Made by a program: the position numbers and the translations under genes. From NCBI RefSeq assembly GCF_013307245.1, contig NZ_CP028941.1, positions 496,001 to 560,000 of the forward strand: DNA of 64,000 nt, given 5' to 3'. This DNA is from Polynucleobacter antarcticus (GTDB taxonomy: Bacteria; Pseudomonadota; Gammaproteobacteria; Burkholderiales; Burkholderiaceae). Each line of letters starts with the position of its first letter. Position 1 is the first letter of the stretch. Positions 34,375 to 58,602 of this stretch are shown in pieces. Below the pieces are notes generated by a model. The model ran no database searches and was not told where the DNA came from. It saw only the letters and a program-made list of their open reading frames with translations.

Positions 34375-34458
34375 GAATCCTTCATCCTAGACCCATTATT
34401 GTAGGCTTCTTTGTTTTTTATTCGAATAGAAACTGCACTGTGTGATAGAGTCCACTAG

Positions 34459-34645
34459 TCGTGGTGCTTTATTGCAATGCAATAAAGTTAAACGGGAAAC
34501 ACTAAACGTGTGCTGCCCCCGCAACGGTAAGTAAATACATCCTTACTTTTTAGGATGTCAGGAATCTGATTCAGCCACTGTGCGCGTCAATTGCATGGGA
34601 AGGCCAGCTTCTGAGATTTACTAGCCCGGATACCGGCCAAGACAG
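34459..34645 (+). ncRNA. Cobalamin riboswitch
   Basis: A classic B12 aptamer: a GGTGC start, AACGGGAAACACT, then GTGCTGCCCCCGCAACGGTAA, followed by AGCCACTGTGCG and the B12 box ATGGGAAGGC. The end is GATACCGGCCAAGACAG. Possible expression-platform stems follow, AGACGC (34684-34689) with GCGTCT (34711-34716), and AGCTTAC with GTGAGCT nearer the ribosome-binding site at 34794-34799. It controls btuB and the downstream transport genes. Confidence 0.96.
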
Positions 34646-34805
34646 GTGGAATTTTGCGGACGGGGATCCTTCGCGCGCCAGTAAGACGCTTTTTTGTCGA
34701 CAAGGCAGGGGCGTCTAATTGACGTTCGAACTCTCAAAAGTGAAATTCTGTTCGACCCAGCTTACGGGGAAGTGAGCTAGGTGACTCGAAGGCAGAAGGT
34801 TCATC
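34646..34805 (+). promoter_or_regulatory. Expression platform between riboswitch and btuB
   Basis: This 160-bp stretch holds no gene. It contains an AGACGC/GCGTCT stem with a T-rich loop (34684-34716), a GTTCGAAC palindrome (34724-34731), and an AGCTTAC-GGGGAA-GTGAGCT hairpin (about 34759-34778) before the AGAAGG ribosome-binding site and the ATG of btuB. Presumably these switch between translation-permitting and blocked forms when cobalamin binds. Folding was judged only by eye. Confidence 0.5.
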
Positions 34806-39905: not shown

Positions 39906-40248
39906 AGTAACTCTCGCTGGGCAAAAAATTACTTTAACTACGAGTACAGAGCATGAGCCTCTGCTGCGTGCCGCCTGCACACTCGTAGACGAACAAATTC
40001 AGTTGGCAATTAATGGTGGCAACCGTAGTATTGAGCGTGCCAGCATGATGGCTGCTCTTAAAATTGCTGGTGATCTGATTGCTTTACAAACAAGTCATCA
40101 AGCGCCTACCGCACAAAGTACTGCGCTCAACAGTAGTCCAGAAGAAATCACTCAACTTCAAAATGAGATTCGTGCATTAGAAGATCAAGTAGATACTCTG
40201 ATGCAAACTCTTTCCCTGCCTGGTTCGCCAAGGCCAATAGTTCCTTGA
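39886..40248 (+). CDS. zapA: Cell division protein ZapA
   Basis: The protein stabilises the FtsZ ring. It starts MSQQRIEVTLAGQKITL and has the tetramerisation helix (IQLAINGGNRSIERASMMAALKIAG split by the usual motifs) and a C-terminal coiled coil (EITQLQNEIRALEDQVDTLM). The ATG at 39886 (120 residues) is preferred over the upstream frame start at 39850 since it carries a GAGGA ribosome-binding site and the family N-terminus. The last 37 bp overlap the 6S RNA gene. Confidence 0.9.
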   Translation: MSQQRIEVTLAGQKITLTTSTEHEPLLRAACTLVDEQIQLAINGGNRSIERASMMAALKIAGDLIALQTSHQAPTAQSTALNSSPEEITQLQNEIRALEDQVDTLMQTLSLPGSPRPIVP

Positions 40249-40424
40249 ACCGATGCGCAAGCATCAGGAACGATCTTTACTTTGTGGGCGTGAGCGTTTC
40301 GATTCTTCACAGTGGCAGCTCGAGCTGTTTACTCCCTGAGTATCTTAATGCACCCAAAACAAGGTAGCCGTTCCACCTTGAACCTTAGGGTTCAGGATGA
40401 CGGCCTAGCGGCTAAGGCGGGGAA
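40212..40424 (+). ncRNA. ssrS: 6S RNA
   Basis: The arms TTCCCTGCCT (40212-40221) and AGGCGGGGAA (40415-40424) pair over 10 bp. The 5' part GGTTCGCCAAGGCC, then CCTTGAACCGAT, and the 3' part CCACCTTGAACC-TTA-GGGTTCA with ACGGCCTAGCGGC match the order of E. coli 6S RNA (TGTTCGC, CCTGAGCCGAT, CACCTTGAACC, GGGTTCA, GCGGC). The position after zapA is the conserved one. 6S RNA binds sigma70 RNA polymerase through its central bubble in stationary phase. The ends are estimated from pairing and may be off by a few bases. Confidence 0.92.
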
Positions 40425-40427
40425 TTC

Positions 40428-50691: not shown

Positions 50692-50706
50692 AAGAATGGA
50701 ATGTAT

Positions 50707-51648
50707 ATGAACTTGCATCAATTTCGGTTTGTCCGTGAAGCAGTCAGACAGAACTTTAATCTGACAAGCGCTGCTAAAGCCCTTTTTACCTCTCAGCCCG
50801 GAGTTTCAAAAGCCATTATTGAGCTTGAAGATGAGCTGGGGGTAGAGATCTTTCGTCGTCATGGAAAGCGCATCCGCTCTCTGACCGAGCCTGGTAAACG
50901 CATTCTTGCATCAATTGAGCGTATTTTGGATGAAGTAGAAACCCTGCGGCGCGTGGGCAAAGATTTTGCTAATCAAGATCAAGGTAATTTTGTGATTGCT
51001 ACCACCCATACACAAGCGCGATATGCGCTCCCAAAAGTCCTTACAGAATTTACCAAACGTTTTCCTAAAGTACGCGTGAGTATTCAGCAAGGAAACCCAG
51101 GCCAAATCGCTGAGCTCCTCATTCATGATCGTGCAGACATTGCGATTGCGACTGAGGGAATTGCCAATACCCCTGGTGTCTTAGCTCTACCTGGCTATCA
51201 ATGGCAGCACGTAGTGATGATTCCACTGAGTCATCCCCTACTTAATCAAGCGGCTATTTCGCTTGAAGAACTCGCCAAATACCCGCTGATCACTTATGAC
51301 AAGGCCTTCGCTGGTCGTAGCAAAATTGATGCTGCTTTTGCACAGCGCAACTTAAGCCCAGATATTATTTTGGAAGCCATTGATGCCGATGTCATTAAAA
51401 CCTATGTAGAAACCGGTATGGGTGTTGGAATTGTGGCCGGCTTAGCTTATGACGCCGACAGGGATCGTAATTTGCGCGTGATTCCAGTGGGGCACCTATT
51501 TGGTAACAATGTGACACACCTAGGCGTAAAACAAGGTGCTTATTTACGTTCTTTTGTTTACACCTTTATTGAACTGTTCTCACCTACGCTGACTAAGAAA
51601 ATTGTCGAACAAGCCATGAGTAACAACTCTGATACTTACGAAATTTAA
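50707..51648 (+). CDS. cysB: CysB-like LysR-family transcriptional regulator
   Basis: An HTH at residues ~18-40 (LTSAAKALFTSQPGVSKAI) plus a long linker helix and a C-terminal sensor domain (NFVIATTHTQARYALP, IATEGIANTPGVLALP). The overall form MNLHQFRFVREAVRQNFNLT is that of CysB, which activates sulfate assimilation on binding N-acetylserine. The frame also begins at 50701; ATG 50707 matches the family. No cys genes are adjacent, so the symbol rests on sequence likeness. Confidence 0.85.
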   Translation: MNLHQFRFVREAVRQNFNLTSAAKALFTSQPGVSKAIIELEDELGVEIFRRHGKRIRSLTEPGKRILASIERILDEVETLRRVGKDFANQDQGNFVIATTHTQARYALPKVLTEFTKRFPKVRVSIQQGNPGQIAELLIHDRADIAIATEGIANTPGVLALPGYQWQHVVMIPLSHPLLNQAAISLEELAKYPLITYDKAFAGRSKIDAAFAQRNLSPDIILEAIDADVIKTYVETGMGVGIVAGLAYDADRDRNLRVIPVGHLFGNNVTHLGVKQGAYLRSFVYTFIELFSPTLTKKIVEQAMSNNSDTYEI

Positions 51649-51657
51649 CCCATCATC

Positions 51658-51981
51658 TCAAGAGCTAATTTTCAAGAGTACGACGCCCAAGAGAATGCAA
51701 GCAATTCCGAGCCATCTCAGCGGAATATTCGGATCACCGAATATGAGAACCCCGATCACAAAAGTGCCGACAGCACCGATGGATGTCCAGATAGCATAGG
51801 CTGTACCAATCGGAATTTCTTTTAGTGAGTACCAAAGTAAGAACCCACTCAAGCTCATACTGAGTACAGCGATCACAATTCCAGTGAATTTCAGATTGGG
51901 AAGATCGGCTATTTTCAAGCCAACGGCCCAGCCCATCTCACACAGGCCAGCTAGAAAAAGAGAAATCCAATAAATACTCAA
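51658..51981 (-). CDS. SMR-family exporter (SugE/Gdx-like)
   Basis: A 107-residue, four-helix small multidrug resistance protein. IYWISLFLAGLCEMGWAVGLK carries the essential Glu of helix 1, and IPIGTAYAIWTSIGAVGT resembles SugE/Gdx guanidinium exporters (the GTAYAVWTGIGAVG motif). The frame begins with a TTG at 52008, but the TTG at 51979-51981 gives the family length and follows GGGCGGGG. A guanidine riboswitch was not seen upstream. Confidence 0.85.
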   Translation of the reverse strand: MSIYWISLFLAGLCEMGWAVGLKIADLPNLKFTGIVIAVLSMSLSGFLLWYSLKEIPIGTAYAIWTSIGAVGTFVIGVLIFGDPNIPLRWLGIACILLGVVLLKISS

Positions 51982-52084
51982 CTCACCCCGCCCAATTAAA
52001 GAAAACAATAAAAAGAGTGTAGCCGTCCACAGAAATACTAGGCAACGGTATTGAAGGCTAAGAGATAATTAACTATAGGGAAGA

Positions 52085-52169
52085 TGGTGCCCCGGGGCGG
52101 ACTTGAACCGCCACGCCTTGCGGCACCGGATTTTGAGTCCGGCACGTCTACCAATTCCATCACCGGGGC
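52085..52169 (-). tRNA. tRNA-Leu(CAA), copy 1
   Basis: On the minus strand the 85-nt sequence starts GCCCCGGTGATGGAATTGG, folds with a 7-bp acceptor stem (GCCCCGG/CCGGGGC), anticodon loop CTCAAAA (anticodon CAA, reads UUG), a long variable arm and encoded CCA. It is identical to copy 2 at 56328-56412. Upstream of copy 1 the homology to copy 2 ends after about 30 nt, at a purD fragment, so part of its native promoter may be lost. Confidence 0.95.
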
Positions 52170-52181
52170 AGGTGTTTGCAG
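52085..52181. repeat. Left 97-bp direct repeat (tRNA-Leu copy plus 12 bp upstream)
   Basis: This segment is identical to 56328-56424 over 97 bp. The similarity continues imperfectly for about 19 more bases (ending in ATTGAAGC in both). The repeats bracket the 4.1-kb island. Confidence 0.95.
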
Positions 52182-52202
52182 TGGAGAAATGAATTGAAGC
52201 TT

Positions 52203-52268
52203 ATCGTGCTAGTGGACGGTAAGCATGTTTTAGCCTTAGCGACCAGCCAAGATCACAAACGCCTACTT
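52203..52268 (+). pseudogene. Fragment of a divergent purD (22 codons)
   Basis: Read from 52203 the codons give I V L V D G K H V L A L A T S Q D H K R L L, matching residues of the intact purD encoded at 57922-57987 in 21 of 22 positions. At the DNA level only 46 of 66 bases agree, because 19 of 22 codons differ and almost always in the third base. The matching sequence starts and stops abruptly. GAAGC just upstream (52196-52200) is shared by the tRNA flank and by purD, suggesting a join at short homology. Confidence 0.85.
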
Positions 52269-52361
52269 ATAAAATCTAAGTCACTGAGCAAGCAGACTAG
52301 TTTGTGCTAATCTTTGCTAAGTTAGTTTATGTACTTTTTTCAACAAACAATTGAGTTTTTT

Positions 52362-53339
52362 ATGAAAAATTATCTGATATCAATATTAAAAAAATGTGCA
52401 GTTCTTCTGATGTTGGCCAGCTCAGGCTTTGGCTTTGCACAGACCGCTTACCCAAATAAGCCTATTAAGCTTGTTGTACCATTTCCACCAGGCGGACTAA
52501 TTGATAACGTTGCCCGCCTCATTACCCCCGCACTTTCTACCGATCTTGGGCAAGCTATTGTTGTAGAAAACAAACCCGGAGCAGGAGGTAATCTGGGCGC
52601 CGCTGAGGTTGCAAAAGCAAATCCAGACGGATATACACTTCTAATGGCCTCTCCACCACTTTCAATCAGTCCTGCAATTTACAAGACTCTTCCTTACAGT
52701 CCCAGCAGCATTGAGCCAATTGCTATTTTTGGACAGCTACCCAATGTACTTTTAGTTAACCCTGACTCCGGGATTAATTCAGTAGCCGAGCTAGTAAAGC
52801 GTGCAAAAGAGTCCCCGGGTAAGATGAACTATGGCTCCAATGGGAACGGCACCTCACTCAACTTGAGCGCCGAGATGCTAAAAAGTCAGGCCGAAATCTA
52901 TGTAGTTCATATTCCCTATAGAGGCTCATCCCTAGCAAACGTAGCACTAGTATCTAAAGATATCGACTTTATGTTTGATAATCTCCCGCCAGCGCTTGGC
53001 TTAATTAAGAGTGGGAAATTGAAGGCACTTGCTGTGACTAGCACTACTAGAAATCCTGCGCTCCCCCAAGTTCCAACAATGCAGGAAGCAGGCTTTCCTA
53101 ACTTTCAGGTGTCAGCCTACTTTGGAATTGCTGCACCCAAAGGCTTGCCGCCAGACATTGCTATGAAATTACAAAATAGTATTCAAAAGACCGTATCTCA
53201 AAAGAACGTGGCTGAGTCACTCTCCAGGCTTGGGGCTACAGTAGATTTTATGAATGCAAGCAAGTCGGCTGAATTTATTAAGGCCGATGCACTAAGGTGG
53301 AAAAAGGTGGTTGATTACGCCAAAATTGAACTAGATTAA
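52362..53339 (+). CDS. Bug/TctC solute receptor of the island
   Basis: A periplasmic receptor of about 325 residues with a signal peptide (LISILKKCAVLLMLASSGFGFAQ in pieces) and the Bug motifs YPNKPIKLVVPFPPGGLIDN and ENKPGAGGNLGAAEVA. The ATG at 52362 (MKNYLISILKK) is preferred over the frame start at 52329 since it starts a proper signal peptide. Given the neighbouring otnC-otnK-ltnD, it may bind a four-carbon sugar acid. The gene is convergent with them. Confidence 0.85.
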   Translation: MKNYLISILKKCAVLLMLASSGFGFAQTAYPNKPIKLVVPFPPGGLIDNVARLITPALSTDLGQAIVVENKPGAGGNLGAAEVAKANPDGYTLLMASPPLSISPAIYKTLPYSPSSIEPIAIFGQLPNVLLVNPDSGINSVAELVKRAKESPGKMNYGSNGNGTSLNLSAEMLKSQAEIYVVHIPYRGSSLANVALVSKDIDFMFDNLPPALGLIKSGKLKALAVTSTTRNPALPQVPTMQEAGFPNFQVSAYFGIAAPKGLPPDIAMKLQNSIQKTVSQKNVAESLSRLGATVDFMNASKSAEFIKADALRWKKVVDYAKIELD

Positions 53340-53358
53340 TTTAATCAACATTCAGCAA

Positions 53359-54054
53359 TTACCAGCGGACTGCAAATGCAGTCCGTAATTCATTTAACTG
53401 AACATCGGTGAGAGGCTTTATCGGGGCATTTTTGAGATAAAAAATTTTTGCTGTTTCTTCCAACTCTTCCAAAGTAGCCATTGCTGAGCTAGGTGAATTA
53501 TTCCATGCATATGGCCCTAAGCGTGACAGCATACAAGCACGCAGAGGCGTTCCAGCCACCCCATACATCTCAATTGCCCTCTCTATGAATTCAATCGTTT
53601 TTACAGAACCAGGACTAGCGTAAGGAATAGTAGGTACATGTCCTACCTTCATTACAAAATATGGTGTGATTGCGGGCAATAGCTCGGGAAAAATCTCATC
53701 TCTTTTTGCATCATTGGGCTCCAGCGTCAAAGTGACACAGTGCGAACTATGCGTATGAATAATGCAAGATGTATCTGGATCAAATTGGCTTGCTTTGCTG
53801 TAAATGGCAGCATGCAAAGCCATTGTCTTGCTGGCCTTGTCACCGCTGAGCTGCCGCCCATGAATATCAATCTTAGCCAATCGATCGGGGTCAAGGAATC
53901 CCAGGCAGGCATCTGTGGGAGTAATTAAAAAACCATCCTTAATACGAACGCTAATATTACCTGCAGTTGCATGAACGTAGGAGCGATCAAACAAACTTTT
54001 TCCAACCCTACAAATCTCTTCTCTTGCTAATTGCTCAATCATCATTCTTCTCAC
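53359..54054 (-). CDS. otnC: Class II aldolase-family 3-oxo-tetronate 4-phosphate decarboxylase (OtnC-like)
   Basis: A 231-residue class II aldolase/adducin-domain protein. GNISVRIKDGFLITPTD and the zinc-site HTHSSHCVTLT are the family motifs, with further His ligands lower down. In known clusters OtnC converts 3-oxo-tetronate 4-phosphate to DHAP and CO2. The frame starts with GTG (54052-54054), overlapping the otnK stop as GTGA; ATGs at 54045 and 54042 also fit (MIEQLAREEICRVG is nearer the usual start). Confidence 0.8.
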   Translation of the reverse strand: MRRMMIEQLAREEICRVGKSLFDRSYVHATAGNISVRIKDGFLITPTDACLGFLDPDRLAKIDIHGRQLSGDKASKTMALHAAIYSKASQFDPDTSCIIHTHSSHCVTLTLEPNDAKRDEIFPELLPAITPYFVMKVGHVPTIPYASPGSVKTIEFIERAIEMYGVAGTPLRACMLSRLGPYAWNNSPSSAMATLEELEETAKIFYLKNAPIKPLTDVQLNELRTAFAVRW

Positions 54055-55313
54055 AGTTTTGAGAAAGCATTTGTGAAAAAATCAGGCGCTCCAAAATTTC
54101 CAGACTTTAAAGCAAGATGTAGAGGCCTACCCTGAACCAAAGCGTAACACCAGGGTACACCTGGGTCAATTTGCTGACCGATCTGCATTTGATCGATACC
54201 CAAAGCCTTCACACATGCGCCAGAAGTTTCTCCGCCAGCAACCAATAGCTGACCAACTCCAAGGGTAATGAGACCTTTGGCGACTAATCCTAAAAGGTTT
54301 TCTATAGCGCTACCAGCAGCCTGAACTCCAAGCTGTGATTGCACTTCCTTAACTTGCTCAGGACTTGCTGATGAGTAAACCAAAACGGGGCCAAGCAAGA
54401 GTTGGGGTTTTGCCCACATCAAGATCTCTTCCAGTAATTGCTCTTCAGATTCCTCACTTAATTCAAGTGGATTCACAACATATGCTGCACCACCCAAACT
54501 TTTAAAGCTTTCAACCTGGAGATTGGTGGCCTGAGAACAACTACCCGAGACAATTGCTTGAAATCCCTTAGCGGGCGGAAGTTTGCTGGATGCCGGATGC
54601 GGATGCAAACCAAAGTTAGCAGGAAGTCCAATTGCAATGCCAGAGCCCCCAGTAATCAAAGGGTGGTCTTTTAATGCGGGTGCAATCCGATACAAGTCAT
54701 CATTAGTTACAGCATCAACAATCGCAATTTTGATGTTGGATGCTTTTAAGTGGGCAATCTTAGAAGAGATTGCATCGGTACCAGCAAGAATGTCTTGATA
54801 CTCAATTAATCCTACATGATGTTGACATTGAACCTGCATAACCCTAACTAAATTGGCATCAGTCATCGGAGTTAAGGGGTGGTCACGCATCCCAGATTCA
54901 CTTAACAGCTGATCACCAACAAATAAATAACCTTTATATACACACCGCCCATTATCTGGAAAGGCTGGAGTCGCAATAGTAAAGTCTACCCCCAAGGCTG
55001 CCATCAGCGCCTCCGTTACAGGACCAATATTTCCTCTAGGGGTGCTGTCAAATGTAGAACAGTACTTAAAGAAGATCTGCTGTGCTCCTTGATCAAGAAG
55101 GTACTCCAACGCTTCCAATGACTGAGCTACTGCATCCTCAGGTTCAAGGTTTCTGGACTTGAGCGCTACCACTACTGCATCTAACTCGGTATTAAAGGGG
55201 TGTTGCGGAATACCTATTGTTTGAGCAACGCGCATTCCATTGCGAACCAGGTTATTCGCCAGATCGGTGGCGCCTGTAAAGTCATCCGCAATGCAACCCA
55301 AAAGAATACTCAC
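54051..55313 (-). CDS. otnK: Four-carbon acid sugar kinase (OtnK-like, DUF1537)
   Basis: A 420-residue kinase with the N-terminal ADDFTGATDLANNLVRNGM (residues 9-27) and the C-terminal ATP-site part LLVAGGETSGACVKALG. OtnK phosphorylates 3-oxo-tetronate at C4. It overlaps ltnD and otnC by 4 bp each, so the three genes form one coupled unit. Confidence 0.85.
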   Translation of the reverse strand: MSILLGCIADDFTGATDLANNLVRNGMRVAQTIGIPQHPFNTELDAVVVALKSRNLEPEDAVAQSLEALEYLLDQGAQQIFFKYCSTFDSTPRGNIGPVTEALMAALGVDFTIATPAFPDNGRCVYKGYLFVGDQLLSESGMRDHPLTPMTDANLVRVMQVQCQHHVGLIEYQDILAGTDAISSKIAHLKASNIKIAIVDAVTNDDLYRIAPALKDHPLITGGSGIAIGLPANFGLHPHPASSKLPPAKGFQAIVSGSCSQATNLQVESFKSLGGAAYVVNPLELSEESEEQLLEEILMWAKPQLLLGPVLVYSSASPEQVKEVQSQLGVQAAGSAIENLLGLVAKGLITLGVGQLLVAGGETSGACVKALGIDQMQIGQQIDPGVPWCYALVQGRPLHLALKSGNFGAPDFFTNAFSKL

Positions 55314-56209
55314 TTTGCAGCTTTCGGCAATTCGATACCCGGGAAAATTTTAATTACAGCGCTGTCGTCTTCCTTGGCAAAACCAGCGGTAGATGCTTGC
55401 ATAAACATTTGATGCGCAGTAGATGAAAGAGGCAACGGGAATTTACTTGCACGAGCCATATCTAGAACTATCCCCAAGTCCTTAACGAATATGTCTACTG
55501 CTGATAAAGGCTCGTAATTAGCGGCAAGTACATGTGCCATTCGGTTCTCAAACATCCAACTATTACCGGCACTATGGGTAATGACCTCGTAAAGCGCGCT
55601 TGCATCCACACCCTCCCTCAAACCAAGCGCCATTGCTTCCGCAGCAGCTGCAATGTGGACTCCAGCAAGAAGCTGATTAATGACCTTGACCTTGCTACCG
55701 ATGCCCGCCTTATCACCCAAACGATAAACAGTGCCTGATATCGAATCCAGAATGGGATTAACCCGCTCATATGCAGCAGCACAAGCCGAAGTCATCATTG
55801 TCATCTCACCAGAGGCGGCTTTAGCTGCTCCGCCAGATATAGGAGCGTCTACATAAAGAATATCTTTTTCAGCGAGGCGGGACTCAAATTCAATCGAAAT
55901 ATTGGGGTCAACGGTAGAGCACATCACGAAAACACTTTGAGGCTTTAGCGAATCTATCAAGCCAGGACTGGTTGGAGAACCAAACAATACCTCTTCGGTC
56001 TGAGCAGCATTCACAACGACTGAGATAACTACATCACAGATTGAACCAAGCTCTCTTATAGATTCACAGGCCGTACCACCAGCTACACAAAACTGACGAG
56101 CATGCTCCAAACGCACATCAAATACGTATAGATCAAAACCTGCCCTTCGGAGGGATGCAGCCATCCCGGAACCCATTGCACCTAGGCCAATTAATCCTAC
56201 TTTTTTCAT
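55310..56209 (-). CDS. ltnD: 3-hydroxyisobutyrate-dehydrogenase-family oxidoreductase (LtnD-like)
   Basis: The 299-residue protein has the NAD-binding GLGAMGSGM at 8-16, the substrate motif DAPISGGAAKAASGEMT and a conserved lysine in GSKVKVINQLLAGVH. In clusters with otnK and otnC it is typically L-threonate (or D-erythronate) 2-dehydrogenase. It is the first gene of the three, overlapping otnK by 4 bp. The isomerase OtnI expected in such a pathway is not present in this cluster. Confidence 0.8.
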   Translation of the reverse strand: MKKVGLIGLGAMGSGMAASLRRAGFDLYVFDVRLEHARQFCVAGGTACESIRELGSICDVVISVVVNAAQTEEVLFGSPTSPGLIDSLKPQSVFVMCSTVDPNISIEFESRLAEKDILYVDAPISGGAAKAASGEMTMMTSACAAAYERVNPILDSISGTVYRLGDKAGIGSKVKVINQLLAGVHIAAAAEAMALGLREGVDASALYEVITHSAGNSWMFENRMAHVLAANYEPLSAVDIFVKDLGIVLDMARASKFPLPLSSTAHQMFMQASTAGFAKEDDSAVIKIFPGIELPKAAK

Positions 56210-56327: not shown

Positions 56328-56412
56328 TGGTGCCCCGGGGCGGACTTGAACCGCCACGCCTTGCGGCACCGGATTTTGAGTCCGGCACGTCTACCAATTC
56401 CATCACCGGGGC
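56328..56412 (-). tRNA. tRNA-Leu(CAA), copy 2
   Basis: Identical to copy 1 (85 nt with CCA, anticodon CAA, acceptor stem GCCCCGG/CCGGGGC, long variable arm). It lies at the right end of the island next to yebC, the likely original place. Its upstream sequence reads through to the yebC promoter region. Confidence 0.95.
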
Positions 56413-56424
56413 AGGTGTTTGCAG
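56328..56424. repeat. Right 97-bp direct repeat
   Basis: Exact copy of 52085-52181, covering tRNA-Leu copy 2 and 12 bp upstream of it. No integrase gene or target-site motif was found in the segment between the two repeats. Confidence 0.95.
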
Positions 56425-56553
56425 AGGAAAAACTGCATTGAAGCAAACTTCGAAGTCAGAGTGTAACAAAAAAGTGTGGTGAAGGCCGTTATTGAACAGA
56501 GAAGCCCTTAAAATGTGGACTTCAAGCCAAATTATTCAAAAGGACTTACCCGT

Positions 56554-57273
56554 ATGGCCGGCCATTCGAAATGGGCCAATATTCAACACCGCAAAGGACG
56601 TCAAGACGAAAAGCGCGGAAAGATTTGGACCAAACTCATTAAAGAAATCACTGTTGCCGCCAAATTAGGCGGCGGAGATATTGCCACCAATCCCCGTTTG
56701 CGTCTCGCGATTGATAAGGCTAAAGATTCAAATATGCCGAACGATAACGTTCAGCGGGCAATTCAACGAGGTACTGGTTCGCTTGAGGGTGTCAATTACG
56801 AAGAAATTCGCTACGAGGGTTACGGCATGAACGGGGCAGCAATTATTGTTGACTGCTTAACTGACAACCGCACTCGCACTGTTGCAGAGGTGCGTCATGC
56901 CTTTGCCAAAAATGGTGGCAATATGGGTGCTGAAGGTTCTGTGGCGTTTATGTTTAAACATTGCGGTCAAATGTTATTTGCGCCAGGCACCAATGAAGAC
57001 CAACTCATGGAACTAGCCTTAGATGCTGGTGCAGAAGATGTCATCACCCATGAGGATGGCTCGATTGAGGTGTTAACTCCGGTACCTGATTTTTCTAAGA
57101 TACAAGATGCCTTGAGCAAGGCAGACTTAAAGGCTGAGCTTGCTACCGTTACTATGCGCCCAGAAAATGAAACTGCCCTTGAAGGTGATCATGCTGAAAA
57201 CATGCAAAAATTGTTAGATGCGCTTGAAAACTTAGATGATGTACAAGAAGTATTTACTAATGCTGCACTATAA
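56554..57273 (+). CDS. yebC: YebC/PmpR-family protein
   Basis: A protein of 239 residues starting [23 protein letters not shown], the unmistakable YebC start. YebC-type proteins act as transcriptional regulators and have recently been linked to ribosome function at proline stretches. The in-frame GTG at 56515 would add 13 residues, but the ATG at 56554 fits the family. purD follows 51 bp later. Confidence 0.95.
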
Positions 57274-57324: not shown

Positions 57325-58602
57325 ATGAAAATTCTTTTAATTGGATCTGGCGGACGTGAGCATGCTCTCGCATGGAAACTAGCGCAATCCCCCGATGTAC
57401 AAACCGTATTTGTAGCACCAGGCAATGGTGGCACTGCTACAGCTAAGCAAACAACGGCCAACATTCAAAATCTTCCCATCTCCGATCTTCAAGAGCTTGC
57501 GGACTTTGCGAAGCGCGAAAAGATTCACCTGACGGTTGTGGGGCCCGAAGCCCCACTCGCTGCGGGCATTGTGGATGTTTTTCGTATAAATGGCTTGCGT
57601 ATTTTTGGGCCTACTCAGCTAGCCGCCCAATTAGAGTCTTCAAAAGATTTCTCTAAGGCGTTTATGAAACGTCATGGCATCCCAACGGCAGATTATCAAA
57701 CCTTCTCTAGTGCCTTAGAAGCACATGCCTATATCGATGCTCAAGGTGCCCCTATTGTGATTAAAGCCGATGGCTTGGCCGCTGGGAAAGGGGTAGTCGT
57801 CGCTATGGATCTACATGAAGCGCATGCGGCAGTAGACATGATGCTGGCAGACAATAAATTTGGTAATGCTGGCGCACGGGTCGTTATCGAAGAATTTATT
57901 ATTGGCGAAGAAGCCAGTTTTATTGTTTTAGTAGATGGCAAAAATGTATTGGCTTTAGCTACTAGCCAAGACCATAAGCGTTTATTAGATGCCGACCAAG
58001 GGCCCAATACGGGTGGTATGGGCGCTTATTCTCCAGCGCCAGTTGTTACTCCAGAAATTCATGCGCGGGCATTACGCGAAGTGATCATGCCCACTGTCAA
58101 AGGTATGGCGGCAGATGGTATTCCCTACACTGGTTTCTTATATGCCGGCTTAATGATCGCACCAGATGGAAACATCAAGACATTGGAGTTTAATTGCCGC
58201 ATGGGTGATCCAGAAACCCAGCCAATTATGGCGCGCCTGCGTAGTGATCTTGTGAACGCTCTCGATCATGCAGTGGATGGCAAGCTTGATGAAGTGGAGT
58301 TAGATTGGGACCGTCGCACTGCCTTAGGCGTAGTGCTAGCAGCCCATCTGTATCCAGATAGCCCTCGCAGTGGCGATGTCATTACTGGTATTCCGGCAGA
58401 CACAGATAATCAACTCACGTTTCATGCTGGGACCATATTCAAGGATGGTCAGCTGCTCACCTCAGGTGGTCGAGTCCTCTGTGTTGTTGGACTATCTGAT
58501 ACTGTTCGCGGCGCACAACAAAAAGCCTACGAGGCTATTTCTCAGATTCAATTTGATGGCATGCAGTATCGCCAGGATATTGGCTATCGCGCTCTGAAAT
58601 AA
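57325..58602 (+). CDS. purD: Phosphoribosylamine-glycine ligase
   Basis: The 425-residue ATP-grasp enzyme joins 5-phosphoribosylamine and glycine in purine synthesis. MKILLIGSGGREHALAWKLA and the GLAAGKGVVVA P-loop are clear; TLEFNCRMGDPETQ gives metal ligands. A 22-codon divergent piece of this gene's homologue lies at 52203-52268. Gene order yebC-purD-hemF-nadD is continuous and same-strand. Confidence 0.96.
   Translation: MKILLIGSGGREHALAWKLAQSPDVQTVFVAPGNGGTATAKQTTANIQNLPISDLQELADFAKREKIHLTVVGPEAPLAAGIVDVFRINGLRIFGPTQLAAQLESSKDFSKAFMKRHGIPTADYQTFSSALEAHAYIDAQGAPIVIKADGLAAGKGVVVAMDLHEAHAAVDMMLADNKFGNAGARVVIEEFIIGEEASFIVLVDGKNVLALATSQDHKRLLDADQGPNTGGMGAYSPAPVVTPEIHARALREVIMPTVKGMAADGIPYTGFLYAGLMIAPDGNIKTLEFNCRMGDPETQPIMARLRSDLVNALDHAVDGKLDEVELDWDRRTALGVVLAAHLYPDSPRSGDVITGIPADTDNQLTFHAGTIFKDGQLLTSGGRVLCVVGLSDTVRGAQQKAYEAISQIQFDGMQYRQDIGYRALK

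Follow-up and report, generated by a model that had tools for sequence, protein, structure and literature searches.

Introduction

Homology-facilitated illegitimate recombination has been proposed to account for the stacked T6SS orphan-immunity genes of Vibrio cholerae (PMC5361080; PMC3240628). In Streptococcus pneumoniae, merodiploids arise by transformation: one study describes a 107.4-kb duplication of the cell's own chromosome that involved repeats left as IS861 remnants (PMC3784515). Flexible genomic islands of aquatic bacteria, of the replacement and additive types (PMC10872708), and the islands of Polynucleobacter (PMC5644125) carry cargo between core genes beside a tRNA and are exchanged across species. 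The Polynucleobacter study also reports that mutS and mutL are missing from 20 PnecC genomes and that recombination hotspots lie at island flanks (PMC5644125).

We analysed a locus of Polynucleobacter antarcticus that can be set beside each of these. It lies in a stretch of 64,000 nucleotides (assembly GCF_013307245.1, contig NZ_CP028941.1, positions 496,001 to 560,000 of the forward strand), which we call the window and to whose first letter all positions below refer. Among described processes, homology-facilitated illegitimate recombination comes nearest. Like the V. cholerae arrays (PMC5361080; PMC3240628), the locus has a low-homology join and gene remnants, and it would have one conserved anchor and old cargo beside new. 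Unlike in those arrays, its anchor is a tRNA gene, its parts agree with one crossover by a segment whose ends had been joined, and its remnant derives from a core housekeeping gene of the donor. With the S. pneumoniae merodiploids it shares the outcome that repeat-bearing donor DNA yields a duplication between repeat copies; it differs from them in that a single tRNA gene serves as the repeat and the inserted DNA is foreign (PMC3784515). The cargo position and cross-species exchange of flexible islands recur here too, whereas this genome differs in that the junctions of one addition can still be read (PMC10872708; PMC5644125). A literature search for a single-crossover, tRNA-anchored case found nothing close among the papers listed, which is not proof of absence.

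Results

The purD stub comes from another Polynucleobacter

The plus strand at 52203-52268 translates to IVLVDGKHVLALATSQDHKRLL, and its counterpart in the intact PurD (57922-57987) reads IVLVDGKNVLALATSQDHKRLL; the sole residue change is H in the stub for N in the intact protein. With 21 of 22 residues shared, 46 of 66 DNA bases are identical and 19 of 22 codons are unlike, 18 of them silently and one (H/N) not. Translation and alignment thus confirm a claim made by a sequence-only reading of the window, that of a 22-codon purD stub with just these residue and codon counts. The resemblance is not chance, since the match reaches 1.3e-9 by tblastx inside the window and, against G171, 5.3e-22 by blastn in a search of 186 Polynucleobacter genomes. 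By these matches and the purD tree, the stub would represent donor codons 200-221; the earlier codons and yebC are absent. The intact purD (57325..58602, plus strand; TIGR00877 560.2 bits) and yebC (56515..57273, plus strand; identified by Pfam) are, by the trees, the recipient copies.

For comparison, we took the loci of 100 relatives, designated by G numbers, from 179 other genomes with a purD match, by score and contig size. Among the purD genes of these relatives, the best scores to the stub were 60/66 (G171), 59/66 (G085 and G082) and 58/66 (G044), and the mean over the 100 other purD genes of the genus was 52/66. The genome's own purD scored 46/66; only G132 scored as low, and none of the 101 scored lower. 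The foreign reading could have failed here, had the local purD been the best match; because that gene ties for the lowest score, the reading survived.

Placement on the purD tree gave a similar picture. The stub was best placed beside G171; placement beside G082/G085 was 2.0 log units lower (AU p 0.35) and beside G044 4.2 lower (AU p 0.10). Placement beside the genome's own purD was 12.0 log units lower and was rejected (AU p=0.005), which bears out the earlier proposal of a foreign purD allele as opposed to a local duplication. Positions beside G099 and G006, the two relatives with the nearest islands by identity, were disfavoured (AU 0.004 and 0.027). A first run covered all 199 branches but had too few replicates to make its AU values reliable; it left 77 placements unrejected. 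Given that and the 66 bp of the stub, the donor is not assignable to one species.

The stub differs from the purD genes of G171, G082 and G085 at 6-7 codons each, every difference being silent, and it shows no non-silent difference from the six other purD genes compared. This suggests that the donor purD remained functional while most of its differences accumulated. Among 80 named loci, the best stub match was 83% over 71 bp, versus 92% for G171, and named loci outside the genus matched worse than Polynucleobacter species; the window's PurD is itself 89-91% identical to the best eight named records, all from Polynucleobacter. The stub is therefore foreign, but from within Polynucleobacter. An origin in a different lineage had been claimed: the foreignness stands, while the distance does not, as the best matches belong to the same genus and point to a sister clade. 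G171, the best match, has other cargo at this site and lacks the tetronate island described below.

The neighbouring tetronate island is foreign

Positions 52329-56209 hold a four-gene L-threonate/tetronate catabolism island. It comprises tctC (52329..53339, plus strand; PF03401), for a tripartite tricarboxylate transporter binding protein; a class II aldolase gene (53359..54054, minus strand; PF00596), probably for 3-oxo-tetronate 4-phosphate decarboxylase, with an NF043034 score of 203.7 bits that is below the cut-off of 250; the 3-oxo-tetronate kinase gene (54051..55313, minus strand; NF043035 597.4 bits, over the cut-off of 350); and the L-threonate dehydrogenase gene (55310..56209, minus strand; NF043037 447 bits, over the cut-off of 350). 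Neither TctA nor TctB accompanies TctC among the neighbouring ORFs listed.

On the island tree this genome falls inside {G006, G099, G044, G085, G082} with support of 100/99, and forcing the island outside the eight-genome clade was 37 log units worse and was rejected (AU p=2e-5). Trees of the flanking genes place the genome outside those eight, both for yebC-purD-hemF (99/99) and for lptFG-lysR (96/100). Because the island nests within the clade while its flanks lie outside, we conclude that the island is foreign; its source is the clade that holds three of the stub's four best matches (G085, G082 and G044).

Third-position identities to the eight island-bearing relatives were 0.57-0.65 for the island, 0.44-0.48 for lptFG and 0.51-0.54 for yebC-purD-hemF. 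The excess of island over lptFG identity averaged 0.144 over these eight pairs versus 0.031 (s.d. 0.047) over 28 other pairs, a set that excludes pairs with G114. That ninth relative gave 0.43 for lptFG, 0.49 for yebC-purD-hemF and 0.40 for the island. The hibd-tRNA spacer, which reaches the right-hand tRNA, is 0.74-0.80 identical to the eight.

The lysR-tRNA interval is a recurrent cargo site

Both lysR and the tRNA could be placed in 98 loci, this genome included. The interval between lysR and tRNA-Leu(CAA) carries cargo in 31 of them, as 0.4-10 kb of extra DNA, and 67 are without; it is a recurrent cargo site in Polynucleobacter. The count derives from 33 gaps of more than 150 bp, from which G031 and G035 were dropped because their gaps hold only the rest of lysR in another frame. 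Different cargo lies between conserved flanks, as in a replacement flexible genomic island. On the lptFG tree, cargo state changes at least 26 times for 29 bearers among 96 genomes, and the tetronate island changes state 8 times for 10 bearers among 96, both counts being made without a shuffled control.

The same island occurs in ten relatives (G099, G006, G044, G085, G082, G172, G079, G016, G114 and G153), in the order lysR-tctC-aldolase-kinase-dehydrogenase-tRNA-yebC-purD, with one tRNA-Leu and with neither smr nor the stub. In this genome an extra block, consisting of smr, tRNA-Leu, its flank and the stub, sits between lysR and tctC. The other 32 gaps of more than 150 bp contained no purD or yebC pieces.

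The gaps of G035, G031 and G033 hold further lysR pieces, which were considered as scars and set aside as the remainder of lysR in another frame; the gene is split over two frames in all three, which may be real or a sequencing error. The gap of G153 has a weak lysR-like match of 56 bp (E 5e-4). By eye, the cargo in the 608-bp gap of G038 (L279) and G039 (L264) might be a small toxin-antitoxin pair.

The two tRNA-Leu genes are identical and their flanks differ

The left tRNA-Leu(CAA) (52085..52169, minus strand; ARAGORN and Rfam), an extra copy, is identical to the right one (56328..56412, minus strand; ARAGORN and flank comparison), and the match is 113/117 once flank is counted. Among 101 loci, a second tRNA-Leu was found here only. 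The gene is letter-identical in 34 of 100 relatives, and so near-invariant a tRNA is a ready anchor for recombination.

The left flank (52170..52203; CAGTGG ... GAAGCTTA) is unlike the right one (56413..56514; CAGAGG ... GAAGCAAAC). In the flanks of 100 relatives, CAGTGG occurs in 91 and GAAGCTTA in 20, and the left flank here has three private changes. CAGAGG occurs in six: G125, G008, G152, G077 and two sister-clade genomes, G079 and G083. This site is therefore not a clean recipient marker. From these comparisons, the left flank would be the donor's and the right flank the recipient's.

A short homology, GAAGC, had been proposed at the join of the stub with the tRNA flank. That proposal falls: 52196-52200 is tRNA flank and not purD, since the left flank ends in GAAGCTTA, as do those of the 20 relatives just mentioned. 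The left joint of the stub more likely lies at 52201-52203 (TTA), where the flank's GAAGCTTA would overlap with purD AGCTT(T/C)ATCG; the overlap is TTA or AGCTT(T/C)A, and TTA could derive from purD.

Second tRNA matches in G163 and G167 were examined as possible duplications and rejected, each being two contigs that overlap by 149 bp, which we read as an assembly fork. The contigs of both genomes break at the tRNA with this exact overlap, and the 149 bp are the same in both; they appear to be a stretch identical across species at an exchange point.

A second lysR tail follows the stub

The left border of the cargo site is lysR (50701..51648, plus strand; Pfam LysR, NCBIfam subfamily NF009327), a CysB-family regulator gene that is probably the recipient's own. 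Its third-position identity to nine island-bearing relatives is 0.43-0.52, similar to that of lptFG. Mosaicism of lysR was considered and set aside: in 150-bp windows, identity peaked at 0.86 in scattered genomes, and none stood out as sister-clade DNA.

Compared with the lysR ends of relatives, the 15 bp at 52265..52279 (plus strand), ACTTATAAAATCTAA, look like the last bases of a second lysR; the lysR end of G006 is ACTTACGAAATCTAA, and the intact lysR here ends in ACTTACGAAATTTAA (51634-51648). The lysR-tctC spacer comes next (52280..52328), in the same position as in island-bearing relatives. Because ACTTATAAAATCTAA and this spacer stand directly 3' of the stub, we take the stub to be joined to the second lysR's tail through ACTT (52265-52268). 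The purD/lysR joint shares only these few bases, ACTT or ACT according to what the donor's final codon was. Tail and spacer together show identities of 0.64-0.73 with the ten relatives that bear the island, and blastn gives a match to G006 at 3e-4. The tail itself matches G006 and G044 at 13/15 (the ten relatives span 11-13/15) versus 12/15 for the genome's own lysR; hence it is not assignable to donor or recipient.

A search for lysR-tail repeats in the gaps found none above shuffled controls, at low power, because this genome's own tail scored 12, below the shuffle maximum of 15. The idea that the lysR 3' end is a site-specific target was dropped on the same low-power test, no gap holding the tail above shuffles.

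Between lysR and the left tRNA lies smr (51658..52008, minus strand; PF00893), for a small multidrug resistance/SugE-like transporter that reaches the curated cut-off of none of the 20 NCBIfam models listed. By tblastn (E 1e-8), smr was found at this site in none of 97 other loci. No DNA match in the genus exceeds 78% identity, and those in G128, G127, G001 and G004 lie hundreds of kb from purD; the best protein relatives outside its own cluster are 75-78% identical. Because of its position, smr would be the recipient's own, cargo that it held before the event.

A single crossover in tRNA-Leu may explain the arrangement

The order of the parts, with a foreign stub and a foreign island in one interval, is what any account must explain. 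We put a probability of roughly one half (0.52) on the reading that the island arrived through one crossover in tRNA-Leu and that the stub is what remains of the far end of the same donor DNA. The donor would have been an unsampled, island-bearing Polynucleobacter of the sister clade. Its segment, about 5.7 kb as measured on G082, would have run from the lysR tail through the island, tRNA-Leu and yebC into purD as far as codon 221, with its ends already joined, purD ...ACTT to lysR ACTTA..., either because it was circular or because it spanned a tandem-duplication junction. The recipient, with the order lysR - smr - tRNA-Leu - yebC - purD, would have taken this DNA up by natural transformation, and one homologous crossover inside tRNA-Leu would have inserted it. 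The product would be lysR - smr - tRNA - [donor flank - yebC - purD' - lysR tail - island] - tRNA - yebC - purD, from which a later short-overlap deletion would have removed the redundant yebC together with codons 1-199 of purD', leaving 22 codons. If the sequence is the donor's up to 56327 and the recipient's from 56425, the exchange would fall within a 97-bp stretch (56328-56424), the tRNA gene plus 12 bp, with the two tRNA copies as the two halves of the crossover interval.

When the locus is read as a ring, the parts presumed to be the donor's form one unbroken series: flank - (yebC - purD 5', lost) - purD codons 200-221 - lysR tail - spacer - island - tRNA. Those presumed to be the recipient's are unbroken too, as lysR - smr - tRNA - flank - yebC - purD. 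Both orders are as expected from one tRNA crossover with an end-joined donor. We infer from this fit that stub and island came in one event, that smr is the recipient's and which party owned each tRNA flank and the lysR tail. Less weight falls on this reading because CAGTGG occurs genus-wide and the tail is nearly as close to the genome's own lysR, and the reading needs a second event, the deletion. The earlier suggestion that a second tRNA-yebC-purD block had collapsed remains the best account of the stub; the block and the island probably belong together, as stub, lysR tail, spacer and island can be read in sequence as a single donor piece.

Other routes to the same arrangement

Perhaps smr, and not the island, was the newcomer? 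In this unlikely but still serious alternative, the recipient already held the island, and a lysR'-smr-tRNA'-(yebC')-purD' piece from a sister-clade species entered by homology-facilitated illegitimate recombination, its left end recombining at or before lysR and its right end joining illegitimately at the 3' end of the recipient's lysR. The same part order would follow, the right join shares the short ACTT, the lysR tail could be either party's (13/15 vs 12/15), and the stub's best match, G171, is without the island. The process has also been proposed to add cargo while old cargo is kept (PMC5361080). However, the 150-bp windows gave no sister-clade stretch or breakpoint in lysR, and the foreign island would need a separate event. 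The alternative keeps its standing because the arguments from flank and tail turn on few bases.

A patch of two pieces is quite improbable. The island would have come by a crossover in the right tRNA, its left end being joined to the recipient flank by a 66-bp filler from the donor's purD. Filler sequences at illegitimate joins are known, and the small size of the stub would be explained without a later deletion. On this account the left flank ought to be recipient sequence, but at CAGTGG/CAGAGG and elsewhere it departs from the right one, albeit by few bases.

We give very little credence to an old local duplication of tRNA-yebC-purD that decayed to a stub, which would match the order and orientation of the intact block but not the rejected sister placement, the tie of the own purD for least similar of 101 or the lack of any non-silent difference from six other purD genes. 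Equally hard to credit is an integrase-driven island at a tRNA attachment site, suggested by the two flanking tRNA-Leu copies. No integrase is encoded among the ORFs of at least 80 aa from lysR to yebC, which are smr and the island's four genes; the island sits at this place in ten relatives with one tRNA and no attachment-site repeat at both ends; and the repeat here is the whole tRNA and not a short core.

Mismatch repair, competence and the reach of the crossover reading

MutS and MutL were not found in this genome, in a search in which controls matched 11/14 (MutS) and 14/14 (MutL). Across the genus, 186 genomes yielded mutS in 27, some of the others being incomplete, and it was found in 0 of the 100 relatives surveyed. 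This agrees with the lack of mutS and mutL in 20 PnecC genomes and with the recombination hotspots at their island flanks (PMC5644125). ComEC and DprA were found above cut-offs. Together with the missing mismatch-repair proteins they count for the crossover reading, but ComEC and DprA are weak evidence of competence because both families also match controls such as E. coli.

When islands are exchanged, the incoming molecule mostly goes without trace. If the single tRNA-Leu crossover took place, both donor ends, purD' and the lysR tail, survive side by side, and the donor clade, the limits of the segment and the gene of the crossover can therefore be read from one genome. The tRNA would then have been duplicated around an island without an integrase, and it could pass for an attachment-site repeat. 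The event is known as a single case; the scar is ordinary in kind, and its legibility is what is unusual. We think it doubtful that integrase-free, single-crossover capture of end-joined segments at a tRNA, helped by the loss of MutS/MutL, is a regular route of cargo stacking in Polynucleobacter, with duplicated tRNAs and core-gene stubs as its fingerprints.

Elsewhere in the window, a cobalamin riboswitch and a 6S RNA lie at 34445-34655 and 40210-40427, respectively.
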